Positions 1,168 to 35,971 of a DNA stretch of 36,938 nt are shown piece by piece; positions within the stretch are counted from its first letter, which is position 1, and each line of letters begins with the position of its first letter. Below the pieces are notes generated by a model. The model had not been told where the DNA came from. It was given only the letters and a program-made list of their open reading frames with translations, and did no database searches. This DNA is from a virus, in the IMG/VR virus record IMGVR_UViG_3300035670_000676, positions 1 through 36,938 of that record. One strand, given 5' to 3'. The position numbers and the translations under genes are program-made.

Positions 1168-1409
1168 GTCCGAAACATTGAAGCGTCCTATGTGTGTGTA
1201 TTTCATATACACACACACATTTAGGACGCGTTCGCTTTTTGTTCGTCATTCATTTCGGACTATTTCGGACGCTATTTCGGACGATTTCGGACGCTTTTTA
1301 CTCATTTCGGACACCGCTATTTCGGACAATTTCGGACGTTTTACCTAATTCGGACGCTTTTCACGCTTTTCGGACGCTAACGCCAATGTTATTTCGGACA
1401 ATTTAGGAC
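1168..1409. repeat. Iteron-like array of TTTCGGAC
   Basis: The non-coding region between the primase-helicase gene and the gene at 389 holds repeated copies of TTTCGGAC. Exact plus-strand copies start at 1253, 1263, 1275, 1285, 1305, 1320, 1330, 1368 and 1392. Variants are TTCGGAC at 1349 and TTTAGGAC at 1220 and 1402. One inverted copy, GTCCGAAA, lies at 1168-1175. Many start-to-start spacings are 10, 12, 18 or 20, close to one or two helical turns, as expected for one protein bound repeatedly on one face of the DNA. An origin of replication or a multi-site operator are the natural readings. Its place beside the helicase gene favours an origin. Confidence 0.8.
1183..1229. other. Long imperfect inverted repeat (hairpin or cruciform)
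   Basis: GCGTCCTA at 1183-1190 pairs with TAGGACGC at 1222-1229. TGTGTGTGTAT at 1191-1201 pairs with ATACACACACA at 1207-1217. This leaves a five-base loop at 1202-1206 and a four-base bulge at 1218-1221, giving about 19 paired bases in all. The outer arm carries the TTTAGGAC variant of the neighbouring iteron. No T-run follows in the direction of transcription, so a simple terminator is unlikely. An origin structure, an mRNA structure in the leader of the gene at 389, or a dyad operator fit better. Confidence 0.75.
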
Positions 1410-1410
1410 G

Positions 1411-3447
1411 CTAAAACTCATTGCTACTGTTTCCTGGCTGAAACGCTATCCAAACCCATTCATCACGCATGGCGGTGTAACCCATGTCGGATAGCGTGTC
1501 GCGCAATTCCTTCCACCGTTTGCGCTTATCGCTTTCCTCAACATCGCTTCCGAGTCGCTTATAAACTTCTTCTCGCCAGGCTTCAATCGTCACGCATCGG
1601 TGCCTTTCGCCTTGCATAATCCGATACTCGCCCTGCGTCTTTACGACATGGCGCAACGCTTCTCTTCCGACCACTTGATGCTTTCCTCGTCCTGCTTTTT
1701 TACCTTTTCCTGATGGCGGCTCAAACGAATCAATGGTTAGTTCGCCACTAAAGTTCTTCACCACAAGCGTTCCAGCGCTCGACGCATCAAATCCCAAACC
1801 TAATAGTTGATCTGATGGCGGCTCCAACGAAACGCTTTCAAGGCTGAAAAGAATTTCAATGCCATCTTGACCATCCTTTTGCTTTGTCAGCTTTAGTTGC
1901 CCTGATAACTGTTCCTGATGGCGGGTAATCTCAATCTGCGTGTCAACGGCACCCAGGAAACTCGAATGCCCTCTGAGTCCTAATGACGCGTCTTTTCCTG
2001 AGTGATGCACAACAAGTAACGCAGCTTGTGTGGCGGCTTGAAGCCTTCCGCATTGCGCGATAAAGGCACCCATATCTTCACTGGCGTTCTCGTTGCCACC
2101 GGCGAACGCCCTGGCCAATGTGTCGATAATGATTAACCGCGGTTTCTCGATCTCGCTCTCCGCGATGGCGAGCAAAAGATCCGTGAAATCAGCTTCCGAT
2201 GATCTCAGGTTCACTTGCGAACGGATGACGCCAACTGGTATGTCGTTAAAGCCATAATCCTTTCGAAGCCCTGCGATACGCGTGCCAATACCACCATGCC
2301 CTTCACCTGCCACATACAACACGCCACCTTGCTGTTGGACCTCATGGCCAAGCCATGCTTGTCCACTTGCAACCATGGCGGCCATGTGCAAGGCAATGAA
2401 TGACTTAAACGTTCCTGGTGGCCCGTATAGCGCCATAAAGCCACCCTCTGGAACGATCTTGTCGATCAACCATTTCACCGGCTCATCTTTGGCGTCACGC
2501 CACATCTCAACGCGAAACCTGCGTGGCGCTTGATCGCTAAACGGTTCCGATTCAGGTGTGACTGACTCCGGTTCCTTTTCGGCTTTCTTCTCGTTAACTA
2601 ATCGCTCTGGCGGCTCAATCGCTTCGCCTTGCCAGACTGGCGTTTCATGTACCAGCGCTTTCAGGTCTTCAAGATCATTTTCTTGATCGAGCCACTCGTA
2701 AGCATCATCACCAATCACATCCATGCCTAAGTCAATGACACGGATCTGCGCTGCCACGCCTTGCAAGGCACTGGCAACTTTGGCGGCATAACGCCAGCCA
2801 GGTAAATCGTGATCCGGTAAGATCACAACGTTTCTGTCTTTGAAATAAGGCGTGATAGCTTCTGGCCAATCCGATGCTCCGGCGTGCGCTGATACCGCCA
2901 CAACGCCAAGAAATGCCGCTAAATGCTCTGCCGCTTTCTCGCCTTCCGTAATAAACACCACTTTGTTTGGATTGGCGGACATCAGCGGCAATTGAAACGG
3001 TATCGGCTCCCAACCTGAAATCGTTGGTATCCGCTGCCCTTCCACGATCCTAAACTGCCTATACGTTTTCCTACCGTCTGGAAGCTCATAACGCACCTTT
3101 TGAGCCGTTATCTCGCCATCGTCAGTTACATAGTCCCAAGCATAGACTTCGCGCAACCTGATCGGTTTTACGTTGTCCAATTGATCGTTCCTTAATGTTC
3201 TTGGCGGCAATGAGTTCCACGCAAGCCTTCCATCGCCAAGCATGGGTTTGACAGCGTTAAACACTGACTCTTGATCGCACCCACCGAAACACCTAAACAG
3301 CAACTTATTATCGCCATCCGTGATGGCAAGCGATGGGTTCTTATCACCGTTCCCACTGCCATGGCCTGGTACAGGGCAAGACGCTAACCACCCGCGCTTA
3401 TAACGCTTGGCGTTACCAAGCATCTTCGCCATTTGTTCTGCGTTCAT
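1411..3447 (-). CDS. Primase-helicase fusion (Toprim plus RepA-like ATPase)
   Basis: This 678-residue protein opens the duplex and probably primes at the fork. A zinc-binding site is formed by C24, H29, C53 and C57. A Toprim domain follows, with E168 in ITEGEKA and the DHD triplet at 212-214. The C-terminal half is a RecA-like hexameric helicase of the RepA/AAA_25 type. It has Walker A GPPGTFKS at 342-349, a GEGHGGIGTR motif at 381-390, Walker B LIIIDTLAR at 438-446, HHSGKD at 481-486 and LRGHSSFLGAVD at 491-502. The last 70 or so residues are basic and resemble a winged helix. The ribosome-binding sequence AAAGGGGAG precedes the ATG. The gene sits just after a strong terminator and just before the iteron array. 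With no DNA polymerase visible in the genome, it likely loads host replisome parts. Confidence 0.93.
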   Translation of the reverse strand: MNAEQMAKMLGNAKRYKRGWLASCPVPGHGSGNGDKNPSLAITDGDNKLLFRCFGGCDQESVFNAVKPMLGDGRLAWNSLPPRTLRNDQLDNVKPIRLREVYAWDYVTDDGEITAQKVRYELPDGRKTYRQFRIVEGQRIPTISGWEPIPFQLPLMSANPNKVVFITEGEKAAEHLAAFLGVVAVSAHAGASDWPEAITPYFKDRNVVILPDHDLPGWRYAAKVASALQGVAAQIRVIDLGMDVIGDDAYEWLDQENDLEDLKALVHETPVWQGEAIEPPERLVNEKKAEKEPESVTPESEPFSDQAPRRFRVEMWRDAKDEPVKWLIDKIVPEGGFMALYGPPGTFKSFIALHMAAMVASGQAWLGHEVQQQGGVLYVAGEGHGGIGTRIAGLRKDYGFNDIPVGVIRSQVNLRSSEADFTDLLLAIAESEIEKPRLIIIDTLARAFAGGNENASEDMGAFIAQCGRLQAATQAALLVVHHSGKDASLGLRGHSSFLGAVDTQIEITRHQEQLSGQLKLTKQKDGQDGIEILFSLESVSLEPPSDQLLGLGFDASSAGTLVVKNFSGELTIDSFEPPSGKGKKAGRGKHQVVGREALRHVVKTQGEYRIMQGERHRCVTIEAWREEVYKRLGSDVEESDKRKRWKELRDTLSDMGYTAMRDEWVWIAFQPGNSSNEF

Positions 3448-4058: not shown

Positions 4059-5120
4059 TTAAGCGGTGAAGTTTGGCGCCTTCTTGCGCCCAAGTGTTAA
4101 GCCACTTGATTCGGATGTCACCAATTCATCCAAATGCTGATAAATCTCTGGAAATTGCTTTTCCATTTGCGCGGGTGTTAAAGGCGTGACCTTATACGCG
4201 CCTTTTGTTTCGCTGACAAATTCCAACACCTGGCGCTCGCTGCGCCACTTGCGCTGCGCGCGCTTGGCGACTAGCTCCCAATCCGCAAGCGCGCGCCCAT
4301 CTTCTAAGGCTTTCGTTGCCCGTTGTTTGATGGCGTTGATCGTTTGCTCGGCATCATCCGCCACGCCAAGAAGGGCATTGATTTCTGTATCACTAAGTGC
4401 ATCAACTTCTTTCGTGTTGGCAATCATGTACACCTTGCCAACCTTTTCAGGACACGCTGAACGCGCAGGGCACCAACGACAGTGCGCACCTTCATTCGTT
4501 GGCGAGTCAGCGCGCATCGTTTCTGCGATGGCAGGATCAAGCACTGACTGCTTCCACGCCATCAGATCATGGCGGCTCATCTCATGCACTTTAATCGCCG
4601 GCTCTTCCCGCGGTTGCACGATGACTAATTTGAAGGTTTCAACCGTTTTGGGTACGGTGTTTAACAAGCCACAAGCATAGATTTTCAATTGTGGCGAGTC
4701 AGGGCTAACGCTGATCATGCCTGTCTTAAGATCCGCCACCACGCAATCCGTGTCACTAAACGCCACACAATCAGCCGTTCCAAAGACATTGGCACCTGAT
4801 AAGTTCGTTACCGTCACGCGCTTTTCGATCAGCGCTGCACCGTAATCGTCTTGCTCCAAGTCCGTCACAAATTGTGTGTACACATGCGCCCAATGCGCCA
4901 TTTCATCCGTGATCGTGATGCCATCAATCTCTTGTCCAATATACCCATTGGGTGAAACGCCAAGCTCTAAAACCATTTGCGATAGAGAATGAACGGCTGT
5001 ACCGATTTGCGCTGCCTCGCCAGCCGGTGAGCGTGGAATGCCGCGCGATAAACGAATGGATGCTGGACATGCAATCCACCTGTCTGCGGCTGATGGCGAC
5101 CATTCAGAATGTTGTGTCAT
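4059..5120 (-). CDS. Cas4/RecB-like nuclease, DUF2800 type, with Fe-S cysteines
   Basis: This 353-residue protein of the PD-(D/E)XK superfamily probably acts as a DNA exonuclease in recombination or replication. Visible motifs are GTAVH (H44), GTADCVAF at 114-121 and VVADLKTG at 127-134 with D130 and K132, the core of the active site. One cysteine near the N-terminus (C19) and three near the C-terminus (C214, C217, C223) fit the split 4Fe-4S site of Cas4/AddB-type nucleases. The ATG at 5120 was chosen because it overlaps the upstream stop as ATGA. An in-frame upstream start would add 11 residues inside the neighbouring gene. It is followed after 20 bases by the SSB-like gene. Confidence 0.85.
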   Translation of the reverse strand: MTQHSEWSPSAADRWIACPASIRLSRGIPRSPAGEAAQIGTAVHSLSQMVLELGVSPNGYIGQEIDGITITDEMAHWAHVYTQFVTDLEQDDYGAALIEKRVTVTNLSGANVFGTADCVAFSDTDCVVADLKTGMISVSPDSPQLKIYACGLLNTVPKTVETFKLVIVQPREEPAIKVHEMSRHDLMAWKQSVLDPAIAETMRADSPTNEGAHCRWCPARSACPEKVGKVYMIANTKEVDALSDTEINALLGVADDAEQTINAIKQRATKALEDGRALADWELVAKRAQRKWRSERQVLEFVSETKGAYKVTPLTPAQMEKQFPEIYQHLDELVTSESSGLTLGRKKAPNFTA

Positions 5121-8407: not shown

Positions 8408-9054
8408 GCGCCCACCCTAAACCATTGCTTTGCGTAATGTGGTCTGTTCTCCACAATCCATGGCGCTGCATCGCCAACCAGTTGCTTGACATCCGTTCCA
8501 ACGGTTTGCGATCCAGCGTGATGAACATACGCGCGCGACACGAAATGCTTGTAACCTTTTTCTCGCAAGTCAGCGCAAATCACATCATCGCTAAACCAAT
8601 TGATCGGCGGGAAACGGCACTCGGCAAACGCTTTAGCTGATAAGTAAGCAAAGATCGGGCTGATCACGTCCACGGGTTTGATGGCGTCTTCACTCTTCCA
8701 ACGGCACATCTCAATACCGTCACCCTCGTTGCGCGGCACTCGGATGTTTTGTGGCGGTCTAACGAAATCACTTCTTGCCGCCACGAAACCAAGATTCTTG
8801 CAAACCTTTTTCAGTGCCTGAACGTCATCGAGTATTAACGCCATCGTTGTTGGAGTCAGCACGATGTCATCGTTGGCGACAATAAACCCTTCATCGTCAC
8901 CAGCAAATGCGTCAATCGCTGCGTTGTAGTCATCGCCAAAGTTCCCATGGGCGCCATGGAAGATGCAGATCTGTACGCCTTTGGCGTAATGAAAAACGCT
9001 GCTTTTCATAACGTGAAGTGACTGACTTCCTGTTGTTGAAACAATGATCTTCAT
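8404..9054 (-). CDS. GT-A-like glycosyltransferase
   Basis: This encodes 216 residues beginning at the ATG at 9054. That ATG overlaps the upstream stop as ATGA and gives an N-terminal strand MKIIVSTTG. The short acidic motif VANDDIVL at 59-66 sits where GT-A enzymes hold the DXD metal site. FSDDVICADL at 154-163 matches the acidic catalytic-base region of GT2-like enzymes, and VHHAGSQT follows at 177. It is shorter than typical GT2 enzymes, so it may be a minimal catalytic domain. It is probably soluble, with no membrane segment. Confidence 0.65.
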   Translation of the reverse strand: MKIIVSTTGSQSLHVMKSSVFHYAKGVQICIFHGAHGNFGDDYNAAIDAFAGDDEGFIVANDDIVLTPTTMALILDDVQALKKVCKNLGFVAARSDFVRPPQNIRVPRNEGDGIEMCRWKSEDAIKPVDVISPIFAYLSAKAFAECRFPPINWFSDDVICADLREKGYKHFVSRAYVHHAGSQTVGTDVKQLVGDAAPWIVENRPHYAKQWFRVGA

Positions 9055-32184: not shown

Positions 32185-32342
32185 TTGGATCTCGCAGCGC
32201 GCATGTTGTCAACAAGATTCGGATAAGGCCGACCTGCTGACTTCGCCATGGCTTTGGCGGATGCTTTCTCTTTCTTGGATAGCCTGTCGGGCTTTCCAAG
32301 GCTTTTTGGACGTGGCTTGTCCCAAACGGGTTTGGCTTTCAT
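32181..32342 (-). CDS. Small basic protein
   Basis: This short gene encodes 53 residues, highly basic. The pattern WDKPRPKSLGKPDRLSKKEK followed by AGRPYPNLVDNMRAARSK is one I recognise from small phage genes ahead of portal modules. It is preceded by a 43-base gap with a possible promoter on the minus strand (TTGATT, 15 bases, TATAGG), too short in spacing to be sure. It may start the head operon transcript. The function is unknown. Confidence 0.78.
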   Translation of the reverse strand: MKAKPVWDKPRPKSLGKPDRLSKKEKASAKAMAKSAGRPYPNLVDNMRAARSK

Positions 32343-32798: not shown

Positions 32799-32991
32799 GA
32801 TTTCCCCTCGTTAACTGTTGTTTGATGGCATCGCTCATCTTCGGCAATGGCGACCAAGCAATCGCCCAATCGCTCCATGTACCTATGACGCACACACCGC
32901 CAGGATTCAATAACAACATTTTCACGCCTAGCGGTGGCGGCTCATCGCTTACGGTGCGCCAAGTGGCTTGCCCTGCAACGTAATCTCTCAC
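32788..32991 (-). CDS. DUF551-like small protein
   Basis: This encodes 67 residues. The core WRTVSDEPPPLGVKMLLLN, then GGVCVIGTW and AWSPLPKM, resembles DUF551, a small beta-rich domain common in phage accessory genes. The function is unknown. It is coupled by ATGA to the winged-helix gene upstream. Confidence 0.72.
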   Translation of the reverse strand: MRDYVAGQATWRTVSDEPPPLGVKMLLLNPGGVCVIGTWSDWAIAWSPLPKMSDAIKQQLTRGNHDG

Positions 32992-33314
32992 GCCGCTGGA
33001 CCGCCAAGATTGAACGGATTATTCCAAGCCAACTTCCTGTTTCTCGTTTGTGGCTTGTGATCAATGGCGTTGTAACCGTAAGACCATGCCGGCTTTTTCG
33101 CCAAGGATGACTGAACCCTGATTAAGGTTCGCGTCACTTTACCCTCGTCAAGCAAAACATCAAAAACGTTTTGCACAAGCCGCGGGTTGATCTTTAACTT
33201 ATCGGCCATTTCTTTAACCGTGACGGGCGTTGATCTTTTTTGTATGTAACTCAAGCACGCATCACCGCGATCAGTTTTGGCTTTCGATCTGATCCTGTAA
33301 GCAGACATCGACAT
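32988..33314 (-). CDS. Winged-helix protein with NNPFNL tail
   Basis: This encodes 108 residues from the ATG at 33314 (TGATG with the upstream stop). Residues 20-62 read as a winged helix (VKEMADKLKINPRLVQNVFD, then VLLDEGKVTRTLIRVQ). It ends in WNNPFNLGGPAA, sharing NNPFNL with its neighbour at 33314-33808. It is probably a DNA-binding regulator that uses the shared tail to contact a common partner. Confidence 0.75.
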   Translation of the reverse strand: MSMSAYRIRSKAKTDRGDACLSYIQKRSTPVTVKEMADKLKINPRLVQNVFDVLLDEGKVTRTLIRVQSSLAKKPAWSYGYNAIDHKPQTRNRKLAWNNPFNLGGPAA

Positions 33315-33808
33315 CACGCCACCCTCAGGTTGAATGGATTATTAAAGTTAATCACTTGCTTTTGATTAGCCAGTTTATAGCGGCGCTTTTTGCCGCCAAA
33401 ACGATGCGTGGTATCAACAGCAACAACAACACCGTCGGTCATCATTTGAAGCATGTAGCGATACGTTGTTGTCATGGATAGCTTGCAAGCCTTGGCAATT
33501 TCTTCGCACGTCAACAAACCATCTTCTTGCTTGCCAAGTAACGTTTCAATCATTTCCAGCGGCGGTCTTTCTTTAAGCAGAGAATCGCTTACGCCAGGCA
33601 AAGCAAAGTAAGACCTCCAGCGATTGTTCTTGTAAACATGCTTTCGCTTAATCAATTTGCGCTCTAGCAAATGCCTCAACAAACGATGAACGCCATAAGT
33701 CTGAACATTGAATTGATCAGCAATATCGTTTGCTGATACCCAACCATTGGCCTCGATCGTTTCGTAGTAAGCCTTTTCCGATGTCGAAATAAATTTACCG
33801 TCAATCAC
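33314..33808 (-). CDS. Protein with two winged-helix domains and NNPFNL tail
   Basis: This encodes 164 residues. A first winged helix lies at about 22-70 (VSANDIADQFNVQTYGVHRL) and a second at about 97-142 (LTCEEIAKACKLSMTTTYRY), ending in a wing with GGKKRRYKL. The C-terminus FNNPFNLRVA repeats the tail of the next gene. It is probably a DNA-binding regulator of late genes or a packaging accessory, since it directly follows the large terminase gene (12 bases between). Confidence 0.78.
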   Translation of the reverse strand: MIDGKFISTSEKAYYETIEANGWVSANDIADQFNVQTYGVHRLLRHLLERKLIKRKHVYKNNRWRSYFALPGVSDSLLKERPPLEMIETLLGKQEDGLLTCEEIAKACKLSMTTTYRYMLQMMTDGVVVAVDTTHRFGGKKRRYKLANQKQVINFNNPFNLRVA

Positions 33809-33820
33809 TTTTCTCTCCTG

Positions 33821-35245
33821 TTAAACAACTGCCTTCAAATTTCTTTTCAATGGTTTGTTCCATTTCGATGTGTAGGACTTGCCGTAAAGCGCAATGCCTG
33901 CGTCGCTAGCAAAGGTCAACGCCAACGCATCGGCCATATCAGGCGAACCAATCCCGCGCTTGCGCATCTCGTCTTTGCTCTCTAGCTTCATCTTGCCGCT
34001 CGAGTTGAACGTGTAACGCGGTGCGACAAGTTCCGCCAATAACGAATCGTCCTTGGGTAACTTGCAATCGCGCTTTTCAAGCCATGCTTTCATCTTGCCC
34101 CATAGCTCGGCGCGCAAGTTAACGTAAATCGTACCCATGGCAGGGGACTCTGCAACGTTGATGCCGCGCGCTGGCAAACCCAATTCCCTGAGTCGATCAA
34201 CAACACCGGCACCCAACCCAATCGAATCGACCAGGATTTCAATGGGCCTATCTTCCAATTTCACGGCTTCGTATTCAGCAACCACGGCACCCGTTGTCTG
34301 CATCAAATCCAAATTCTTCCACTTGCGAATCTCGTTGACAGCGTTTCCTTTCCTTTTCGCCAATGCCGTGGCGTCAGTACCAAATCGCGCCACATCCAAT
34401 CCCCACACGATAGGCGCATCTTCCGATGTTGATACATCACGATGGAAAGCGCTATCCACCAAATCAAACCCAATCAACGTATCGTCATCCGTTTTTGGAA
34501 ACTCACCCAAAACGCGAATCCGAAATGCGTTGGATTCCTCGCCATAGCGCGACGCCATATCAGCGATGTAGTCCTTCGACACGCGCCTTGAGTCATAGCA
34601 AGACACGCGACGCGTCCACCATTCATCCTTCAAACGATTGTGCGTGTCAAAGAAAAACCCACTCGATTTCGTTGGGTTGCCAAGCAGAATCGTCACGGCG
34701 CTGTGACCCGACATGGAACCCGCGGCGGCTTCAAACACGGCTTCAGGAACACCCGACGCTTCATCCGCCACAAGCATCACATGATCGCTATGCACACCTT
34801 GCAAGGCTTCAGGTTGCTCGGCACGCGACGTCCTGGCCGATATAAACGCTTCCGTGGGTGATGCCTTAAGTTCAATGCGATCCGTTTTGGCTTCTAACAA
34901 CTCACGCCACGCATCAGGCAATTCCTTGTGCCAACGCTTCAACTCGGCAAACAGTGCGTCATACAACTGCGCTGACGTTGGCGCTGTCACCACCACTTTC
35001 GATGGGTAGCGCGTCAACACAAACCAAAGCATCGCCCACGATGCCGCTGTTGACTTACCAACGCCATGACCTGATCGCACGCTGATCTTCCTCTCACCGC
35101 TCGATATGGCATCAAGAAATTCTCCTTGCCACACATCAGGCTCAACACCAATCACTTCGCGCACAAAAAGCCTAGCGTTGGGTCTGTATTTCGCCAACGC
35201 ATCCCGAAATAACTTCACTAAATCATTACCGGCATCCACGATCAA
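33821..35245 (-). CDS. terL: Terminase large subunit
   Basis: This encodes 474 residues. The ATPase has Walker A SGHGVGKST at 58-66, Walker B VMLVADEA at 156-163 with the catalytic E162, and a coupling motif LLGNPTK at 187-193. The RNase H-like nuclease has D284 in WGLDVARFG, D340 in ILVDSIGLG and D436 with D439 in SPDMADAL. It pumps DNA into the procapsid and cuts concatemers. It overlaps the upstream recombinase gene by 20 bases. In contrast to most phages, terS is not adjacent: about 1.4 kb with three genes and the GC-rich region lie between. Confidence 0.95.
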   Translation of the reverse strand: MIVDAGNDLVKLFRDALAKYRPNARLFVREVIGVEPDVWQGEFLDAISSGERKISVRSGHGVGKSTAASWAMLWFVLTRYPSKVVVTAPTSAQLYDALFAELKRWHKELPDAWRELLEAKTDRIELKASPTEAFISARTSRAEQPEALQGVHSDHVMLVADEASGVPEAVFEAAAGSMSGHSAVTILLGNPTKSSGFFFDTHNRLKDEWWTRRVSCYDSRRVSKDYIADMASRYGEESNAFRIRVLGEFPKTDDDTLIGFDLVDSAFHRDVSTSEDAPIVWGLDVARFGTDATALAKRKGNAVNEIRKWKNLDLMQTTGAVVAEYEAVKLEDRPIEILVDSIGLGAGVVDRLRELGLPARGINVAESPAMGTIYVNLRAELWGKMKAWLEKRDCKLPKDDSLLAELVAPRYTFNSSGKMKLESKDEMRKRGIGSPDMADALALTFASDAGIALYGKSYTSKWNKPLKRNLKAVV

Positions 35246-35891
35246 TCACCTTTTTGATAGCCGTATGCGAAACCTTCACGTTATGACGCCTTCCCACTTC
35301 CCACGCAATGATGCGCAGCGAGTACCTACCCGATAAAGCCTTGATCGTTTTCAATGCTTCTTGCTGATCATCAATCGGCACCAGGCGCGCATCTTTGCCG
35401 CTACCCTCTACGCCATAACCAAACGGCGGTTTGCCGCCAATATGACCGCCGGATGCCTTCTTCGCTGACTGCCCTGTGCGCTGTCGATCTTTGATCACTC
35501 GGCGCTCGTGGGTGGCAAATGCCGCCATGATCTCAAGCATCAACTGGCCATAAATATTCTTTTCATCCGTGACATCGCCATGGCCATTGATGATTAAACG
35601 AATACCGTCACGCTTAAACGCGTGAACAACGTTCAACGTATCCATCGAGTTGCGGCTAAACCTGTCTAGCTTTGACACGATCACCGTGTCACCACGCTCA
35701 AGCGTCACACCGTTTGCCGCCAAACGATCCATGAACCCAAGATGCCCTGATACGCCAGCATCTTCAATGAACCTATCAATGGCAACGTTGTGCGTCAGCG
35801 CATTACCCTCTACCTCTCTGCGCTGCGTGTTCAAGCTCGTCCCGTTGACCTGCTCATCCGTTGACACGCGCAAATAAGCGTAAACGCTCAT
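35226..35891 (-). CDS. Serine recombinase (resolvase/invertase type)
   Basis: This encodes 221 residues from the ATG at 35891, which overlaps the upstream stop as ATGA. The catalytic serine S10 lies in YLRVSTDEQ, and KLDRFSR at 74-80 holds the conserved arginines. A long helix (LMLEIMAAFATHERRVIKDR) links to a short C-terminal helix-turn-helix-like part (LRIIAWEVGRRHNVKVSHTA). It is the small resolvase/invertase type, not a large serine integrase. It lies between the two terminase genes. The role could be dimer or concatemer resolution, DNA inversion or a mobile insert; no invertible repeats were found by eye. Confidence 0.9.
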   Translation of the reverse strand: MSVYAYLRVSTDEQVNGTSLNTQRREVEGNALTHNVAIDRFIEDAGVSGHLGFMDRLAANGVTLERGDTVIVSKLDRFSRNSMDTLNVVHAFKRDGIRLIINGHGDVTDEKNIYGQLMLEIMAAFATHERRVIKDRQRTGQSAKKASGGHIGGKPPFGYGVEGSGKDARLVPIDDQQEALKTIKALSGRYSLRIIAWEVGRRHNVKVSHTAIKKVIDRGCR

Positions 35892-35971
35892 AACGCCAAC
35901 CAAATCATGATGGCGTACAACGCACCAAACATAGCGCCGCCAATGACCAAAGTAATGTTTGAAGATTTCAT
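35888..35971 (-). CDS. Very small membrane peptide
   Basis: This encodes 27 residues, starting with the ATG at 35971 preceded by AAGAGGG. After MKSSN it is one hydrophobic segment (ITLVIGGAMFGALYAIMIWL). It is coupled by ATGA to the recombinase. The site preceding it repeats the leader of the gene at 36021. It may be a translated leader for the recombinase or a small membrane effector. The length makes the call uncertain. Confidence 0.55.
   Translation of the reverse strand: MKSSNITLVIGGAMFGALYAIMIWLAL

Follow-up and report, generated by a model that had tools for sequence, protein, structure and literature searches.

Which process is served by the array of short repeated words that lies beside the primase-helicase gene of this phage, and which protein reads it? 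The window, that is, the whole stretch of 36,938 nucleotides analysed here, is a circular-mapping contig of a tailed phage with a 127-bp end repeat. The array is flanked by the primase-helicase gene (1411-3447, − strand) and by p389 (389-1060, − strand), which codes for an unknown protein. This downstream gene starts with the ATG at 1060 and has a ribosome-binding site, GGAAGGAG, ahead of it. The list of open reading frames also contains a longer in-frame version of p389, reaching 1249, and a + strand frame of 70 amino acids, both of which we have taken as mechanical. On the basis of this placement, the list and the relatives described below, the whole of 1061-1410 (no strand assigned) is considered the intergenic region that contains the proposed origin.

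The word TTTCGGAC occurs in ten exact copies, nine on the + strand and one inverted, all of them within 1168-1399 and with no other exact copy elsewhere in the 36.9 kb. By comparison, 100 dinucleotide shuffles gave a mean of 1.3 copies and a maximum of 6. The main run of iterons (1253-1409, + strand) has exact copies starting at 1253, 1263, 1275, 1285, 1305, 1320, 1330, 1368 and 1392, together with the variants ATTCGGAC at 1348 and TTTAGGAC at 1402 (the latter being GTCCGAAA on the coding strand); with a further one-mismatch copy at 1220, the cluster totals 13. A previous sequence-only reading had described at least ten copies or near copies in non-coding DNA, many of them 10 or 20 bp apart, and this description stands, as successive copies in the main run start 10, 12, 10, 20, 15, 10, 18, 20, 24 and 10 bp apart. 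The inverted copy that it regarded as outlying is indeed present (1168-1175, − strand), but it belongs to a set of copies on the p389 side of a hairpin and is retained in most close relatives. This hairpin (1183-1229, no strand assigned), which had been overlooked, has arms of 17 nt (1183-1199 and 1213-1229) in which inverted copies of the word are found, the iteron-like inverted arms GCGTCCTA / TTTAGGACGC being placed around TGTGTGTGTAT / ATACACACA.

Some characteristics of the region speak against an origin. Its AT content exceeds that of the genome only mildly (56% versus 50%), and the detrended cumulative GC skew has no turning point at the array, where a minimum had been suggested as a check; the minimum falls at 8946 and the maximum at 32335, although this test is weak because nearly all the likely genes of the window are on the − strand. 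No intrinsic terminator was found at the array.

Relatives were collected by protein-guided scans of IMG/VR in which the order primase-helicase, array, p389 is kept. Conservation of the slot between the two genes extends to 79 distinct IMG/VR regions, and cultured Roseobacter phages have it as well; as in the window, the array of these relatives lies directly 3′ of the primase-helicase stop codon. Thus, the slot and its layout are conserved, but the word varies, with at least 12 classes occupying the same place. Relatives at 59-94% primase identity carry the same word family (GTCCGAAA, GTCCTAAA, GTCCGGAA) and a near-constant hairpin. More distant ones carry GGTTACA, GGAGACA, CTTACAA, GGGAACA, GGTAACA, GGACAAA, GTCTACA, GGTCAAA, GACGAATCG, GATCGGAA or CACYACAA, and additional words, such as GGTTATAT, are found outside the set of 85 loci. 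The earlier statement that no phage origin is known with this unit holds for the literal word, but many phages have the same layout built from other words. Exact words of a locus's own class are concentrated in the slot, with 312 in 25.5 kb of slot sequence compared with 62 in 665 kb of flanking sequence. Additionally, in 70 of the 79 distinct regions a hairpin (dG below -8) is flanked by two mutually inverted copies of the own word; the words of other classes gave this arrangement in 23 of 869 tests, all of them between look-alike words.

The hairpin itself behaves differently from the word. Its core GAGAGTCT..GACTC is found with six different words, and core type, assigned from patterns set by eye that three loci did not match, changes 7 times, the fewest possible, on the primase, helicase and p389 trees and 8 times on the domain tree; therefore, the core follows the backbone and not the word. 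Paired changes in the stem are observed among relatives (GCGTCCGA/TCGGACGC versus GCGTCCTA/TAGGACGC, and TCT/AGA versus TAT/ATA), but the first of these is no proof of base pairing because two binding sites changing alike would produce the same pattern.

If the words are recognized by a protein encoded in these genomes, that protein should vary with them. A group of phages at 42% identity is especially informative, since flanking DNA is about 77-94% identical between members with different words. Among 20 loci of this group, 29 alignment columns of the primase-helicase segregate GGAGACA from GGTTACA, and all of them are in residues 593-698 of 699. No such column was found in seven other open reading frames of these loci (a small helix-turn-helix protein, a RuvC-like protein, an untyped small frame, an exonuclease, an SSB-like protein, p389 and terS), each compared over 7 to 16 GGAGACA and GGTTACA loci, the frame chosen for the untyped one having internal stops. 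The same result is obtained with all 85 loci. In pairs with a helicase identity of at least 0.9, the C-terminal identity averages 0.88 when the word is the same (212 pairs) and 0.50, with a maximum of 0.69, when it differs (66 pairs), whereas the first 100 residues of p389 give 0.77 and 0.82, respectively, in the same sets; these pairs are not mutually independent, and their counts are not to be read as probabilities. On trees, the 12 word classes, defined by similarity clustering followed by hand merging and splitting before the counts were made, require 12 changes with the domain, 17 with the end of the helicase, 21 with the rest of the primase-helicase and 21-22 with p389, the minimum being 11 and shuffled labels needing 43 or more. 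A rank correlation that uses every pair gives the domain just a modest lead (0.605 versus 0.50-0.58) and is less informative than the restricted-pair and tree tests. Comparison of these loci thus shows a near-exclusive association in which the word is tracked by the last ~95 residues of the primase-helicase.

Other candidates did not show this behavior. The protein encoded by p389, proposed before as an initiator, flanks the array and yet does not track the word, having no segregating columns and differing freely between phages with the same word. The winged-helix proteins encoded at 5117 and 33314, also named before, and a third one at 32988 were found in the GTCCGAA class only, and not in all of its members. 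A variable gene lies between the primase gene and the SSB-like one and was suspected first because the alignment breaks there, but one of its types occurs with different words. In fact, no neighboring protein that tracks the word, such as a separate RepC-like binder, was found, distant genes being compared by presence only.

Two other variable slots were observed in these phages. Upstream of the primase, otherwise near-identical members of the 42%-identity group carry differing DNA methyltransferase genes (L022 3154-4089, L024 2811-4200, L036 3012-3890 and L042 2130-2737, the last of these coding for an unassigned protein), in what constitutes a second exchange slot with no link to the iteron word. 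The proteins of the winged-helix slot (33314-33808 and 32988-33317 in the window, and after terL in L008 and L017) also differ between close relatives and share a C-terminal NPF motif (NNPFNLRVA, NNPFNLGGPAA, HNPFGIRAA).

The association between domain and word is also evident at the DNA level. In pairs with different words (L022/L036, L029/L030, L040/L037, L131/L146 and, likewise, the cultured CRP-821/CRP-823), identity is mostly 85-98% until about 360 nt before the primase stop codon, drops to ~25-80%, with most values around 50-65%, as far as 120-180 nt past this codon and then returns to about 90%. In the five pairs, the dip sets in some 300-360 nt ahead of the stop codon, close to where the domain begins. 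No clear edges were observed in the more diverged pair L143/L114, and there was no strong dip in L022/L038, whose words differ little (GGTTACA and CTTACAA). In the cultured Roseobacter pair CRP-821 and CRP-823, identity is 97% over primase residues 1-640 and 69% at the C-terminus; TGTATAAA is replaced by ACTACAAA in ten iterons that keep near-identical positions, and the hairpin core, AAACCCTTTAGGGTTT, is unchanged. By contrast, CRP-821/CRP-831 and CRP-823/CRP-811, which share a word, are 98-99% identical at the C-terminus and 89-91% elsewhere in the protein. The text of the paper on the CRP phages was searched for iterons, repeats and the primase, and none of these is mentioned. Comparison of such otherwise near-identical phages shows that domain and array are exchanged as a single cassette, and origin specificity would therefore change in one step.

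The body of the primase-helicase resembles Toprim primases, T7 gp4/Twinkle and RSF1010 RepA in structure matches (RSF1010 RepA matches the helicase with Z 9.6, 2.8 A and 26% identity over 139 residues), and it has a Pfam AAA_25 match (E 3e-41). It is thus a Toprim primase joined to a RepA/T7 gp4-like SF4 helicase. The full-length AlphaFold2 model was poor (mean pLDDT 55) and was used for the well-matched primase and helicase cores only, the C-terminal domain (residues 583-678; 1414-1701, − strand) being remodelled by itself. From 62 aligned domains, AlphaFold2 predicted a helix, two strands, two helices and two strands, with a mean pLDDT of 78 (76-88 in the core blocks). The best structural matches are the winged helices of MukF, Hel308, CAP, Cdc6 and ORC1 (Z 8-9); these matches are generic, and the model shows the predicted fold only. 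None of them points specifically to a phage origin-binding domain, and the P4 alpha domain is absent from the fold matches listed. A Pfam search with the domain gave no convincing family, and a profile search of solved structures gave apparent artefacts (designed repeat proteins). This predicted winged helix, which also tracks the word, is our candidate for the iteron binder.

Taking these observations together, we consider it probable (roughly 80%) that the array is the replication origin of the phage and that the primase-helicase is its own initiator. The earlier proposal of an origin with an initiator coded in the same genome is, thus, well supported by sequence comparison, although not in the initiators that it named. 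We infer binding, helicase loading, melting, priming and origin function itself from the sequences. In our model, the C-terminal winged-helix domain would bind the iterons, as their exclusive co-variation and joint exchange suggest. Several copies bound along the array would then bring the ring-forming SF4 helicase, and the hairpin region would be opened. Finally, the hairpin, once exposed, may start DNA synthesis together with the fused Toprim primase, as the ssi stem-loops of RSF1010 do; we infer this priming step because it is the backbone, and not the iteron word, that the hairpin core goes with.

Several known systems resemble this arrangement in part. As in P4 alpha, whose helicase belongs to SF3, the primase, the helicase and a predicted C-terminal winged helix are found here in one polypeptide, but the helicase is AAA_25/RepA-like and of the SF4 type, and the array lies just 3′ of the gene, with a conserved hairpin that carries inverted words. 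In P4 alpha, a Toprim-type primase, a helicase and a C-terminal winged helix form one polypeptide, of which the winged helix binds short origin repeats (PMC4234260). In SaPI/PICI Rep, the C-terminal domain of the initiator helicase recognizes iterons directly 3′ of its own gene (PMC7581432), and the same is true of SCCmec Cch2 (PMC6092414). The putative origin described here is, likewise, immediately 3′ of the proposed initiator gene. However, PICI/SaPI origins have two iteron sets flanking an AT-rich region, whereas the iterons here surround a hairpin in DNA of the composition given above; moreover, the window is not a satellite but a tailed phage with virion genes (portal, major head, scaffold and large terminase) and an SF4 primase-helicase. 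The RSF1010 oriV (RepC on iterons, RepA helicase, ssi hairpins and RepB′ primase) is similar in its combination of iterons and stem-loops with a RepA-like SF4 helicase. RSF1010 divides recognition, helicase and primase among three polypeptides (PMC4234260), while here no separate RepC-type binder was found among the neighboring proteins and the three functions appear joined in one protein. ORF904 of pRN1 is a primase-helicase with a C-terminal winged helix and a stem-loop 3′ of its gene, the structure of which is kept while its sequence varies (PMC4234260). The window shares the stem-loop and the predicted winged helix, but the primase of pRN1 is archaeo-eukaryotic, its helicase belongs to SF3 and iterons are absent, in contrast to the Toprim-type primase and iteron array found here. 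By analogy, the precedents of P4 alpha, SaPI/PICI Rep, Cch2 and pRN1 support the proposed origin and initiator.

The array could, alternatively, be an operator on which the C-terminal domain or a host factor controls transcription of the p389-terminase operon and not replication. Its position upstream of p389 and the packaging genes, in both the window and its relatives, would fit this role, and all that co-variation shows is a link between domain and array. We nevertheless consider this explanation unlikely, as the recognizing domain is fused to a primase-helicase, the array and hairpin also follow the primase gene in Roseobacter phages that have other genes past p389, and no sigma-70-like promoter was found at 950-1500 (a weak test). 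Still less probable is that domain and array were exchanged merely as neighbors and that something else reads the array. The domain is coded beside the array, joint exchange of neighbors is expected and physical linkage does contribute to their co-segregation; however, p389, about equally close on the other side, is neither co-exchanged nor co-segregating, the exchange begins near the start of the domain, and the limit of 0.69 in domain identity holds for every pair with different words and a helicase identity of at least 0.9. It is very improbable that the array is a packaging site (cos or pac) to which the small terminase subunit binds: the array lies between replication and packaging genes and close to the small terminase gene, but this protein shows no segregation with the word (its helix-turn-helix is identical in L035, with GGAGACA, and L022, with GGTTACA), and a second type of small terminase is also found with more than one word. 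Finally, a recombination site (res/att) of the serine recombinase (35226-35903) coded nearby in the GTCCGAA group is hardly credible, as the loci of other word classes, many of them extending to the large terminase, yielded no homologue and still have the array. In that group, the recombinase gene sits between the small and large terminase genes.

If the array is indeed an origin read by the primase-helicase, it offers a testable origin and initiator for tailed phages without a described origin in the papers searched, and it suggests that a T7/RepA-type replicative helicase can carry its own origin-recognition domain. The layout varies a known theme, the self-recruiting initiator with an adjacent origin. 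Within the papers searched, what appears new is the SF4 helicase, together with how widely words are exchanged in nature; no paper on iterons beside phage SF4 primase-helicase genes was found in a literature search carried out mostly without subscription journals. More tentatively, with somewhat less than even odds, we propose that an SF4 primase-helicase (of the T7 gp4/RSF1010 type) acts as its own origin-binding initiator and that phages branch into mutually exclusive specificities by swapping a winged-helix and array cassette around a constant hairpin, perhaps avoiding cross-replication by co-infecting relatives or satellites. With at least 12 natural word classes and near-identical phages that differ mainly in the cassette, specificity could be tested by domain and array swaps. 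CRP-821 and CRP-823 are the cleanest cultured pair for this purpose; sortkaff and sortsyn, from E. coli, are similar but less regular.

Similar layouts in other named phages and in bacterial genomes are, for now, leads rather than results. Repeats and a hairpin follow the homologous gene in Rhizobium phage 16-3 (GCGTGACA) and, less regularly, in Burkholderia BcepGomr, Escherichia KMB41, sortkaff, sortsyn and Sortsne, and Salmonella Lumpael. They were not found after this gene in Caulobacter GB2A, and Vibrio 1.210 and mycobacteriophage Hashim76 gave no clear case. Among bacterial-genome loci with a primase match, 14 of 80 have post-gene repeats that exceed every mononucleotide shuffle; some of these repeats are not iteron-like. 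At four bacterial-genome loci (L199, L208, L223 and L194), TGCAAACT-type repeats and then a hairpin are found downstream of the primase match, possibly representing the same layout in integrated elements.

The annotation of some of these proteins is also irregular. In phage IME_EC2 (KF591601; L254 589-2276), the primase/helicase is annotated as two open reading frames, split inside the C-terminal region, while the very similar protein of sortsyn is annotated as one. In phage KMB41 (OR539216; L246 1185-2840), the replicative helicase is annotated, apparently by mistake, as a cobalt-zinc-cadmium resistance protein.
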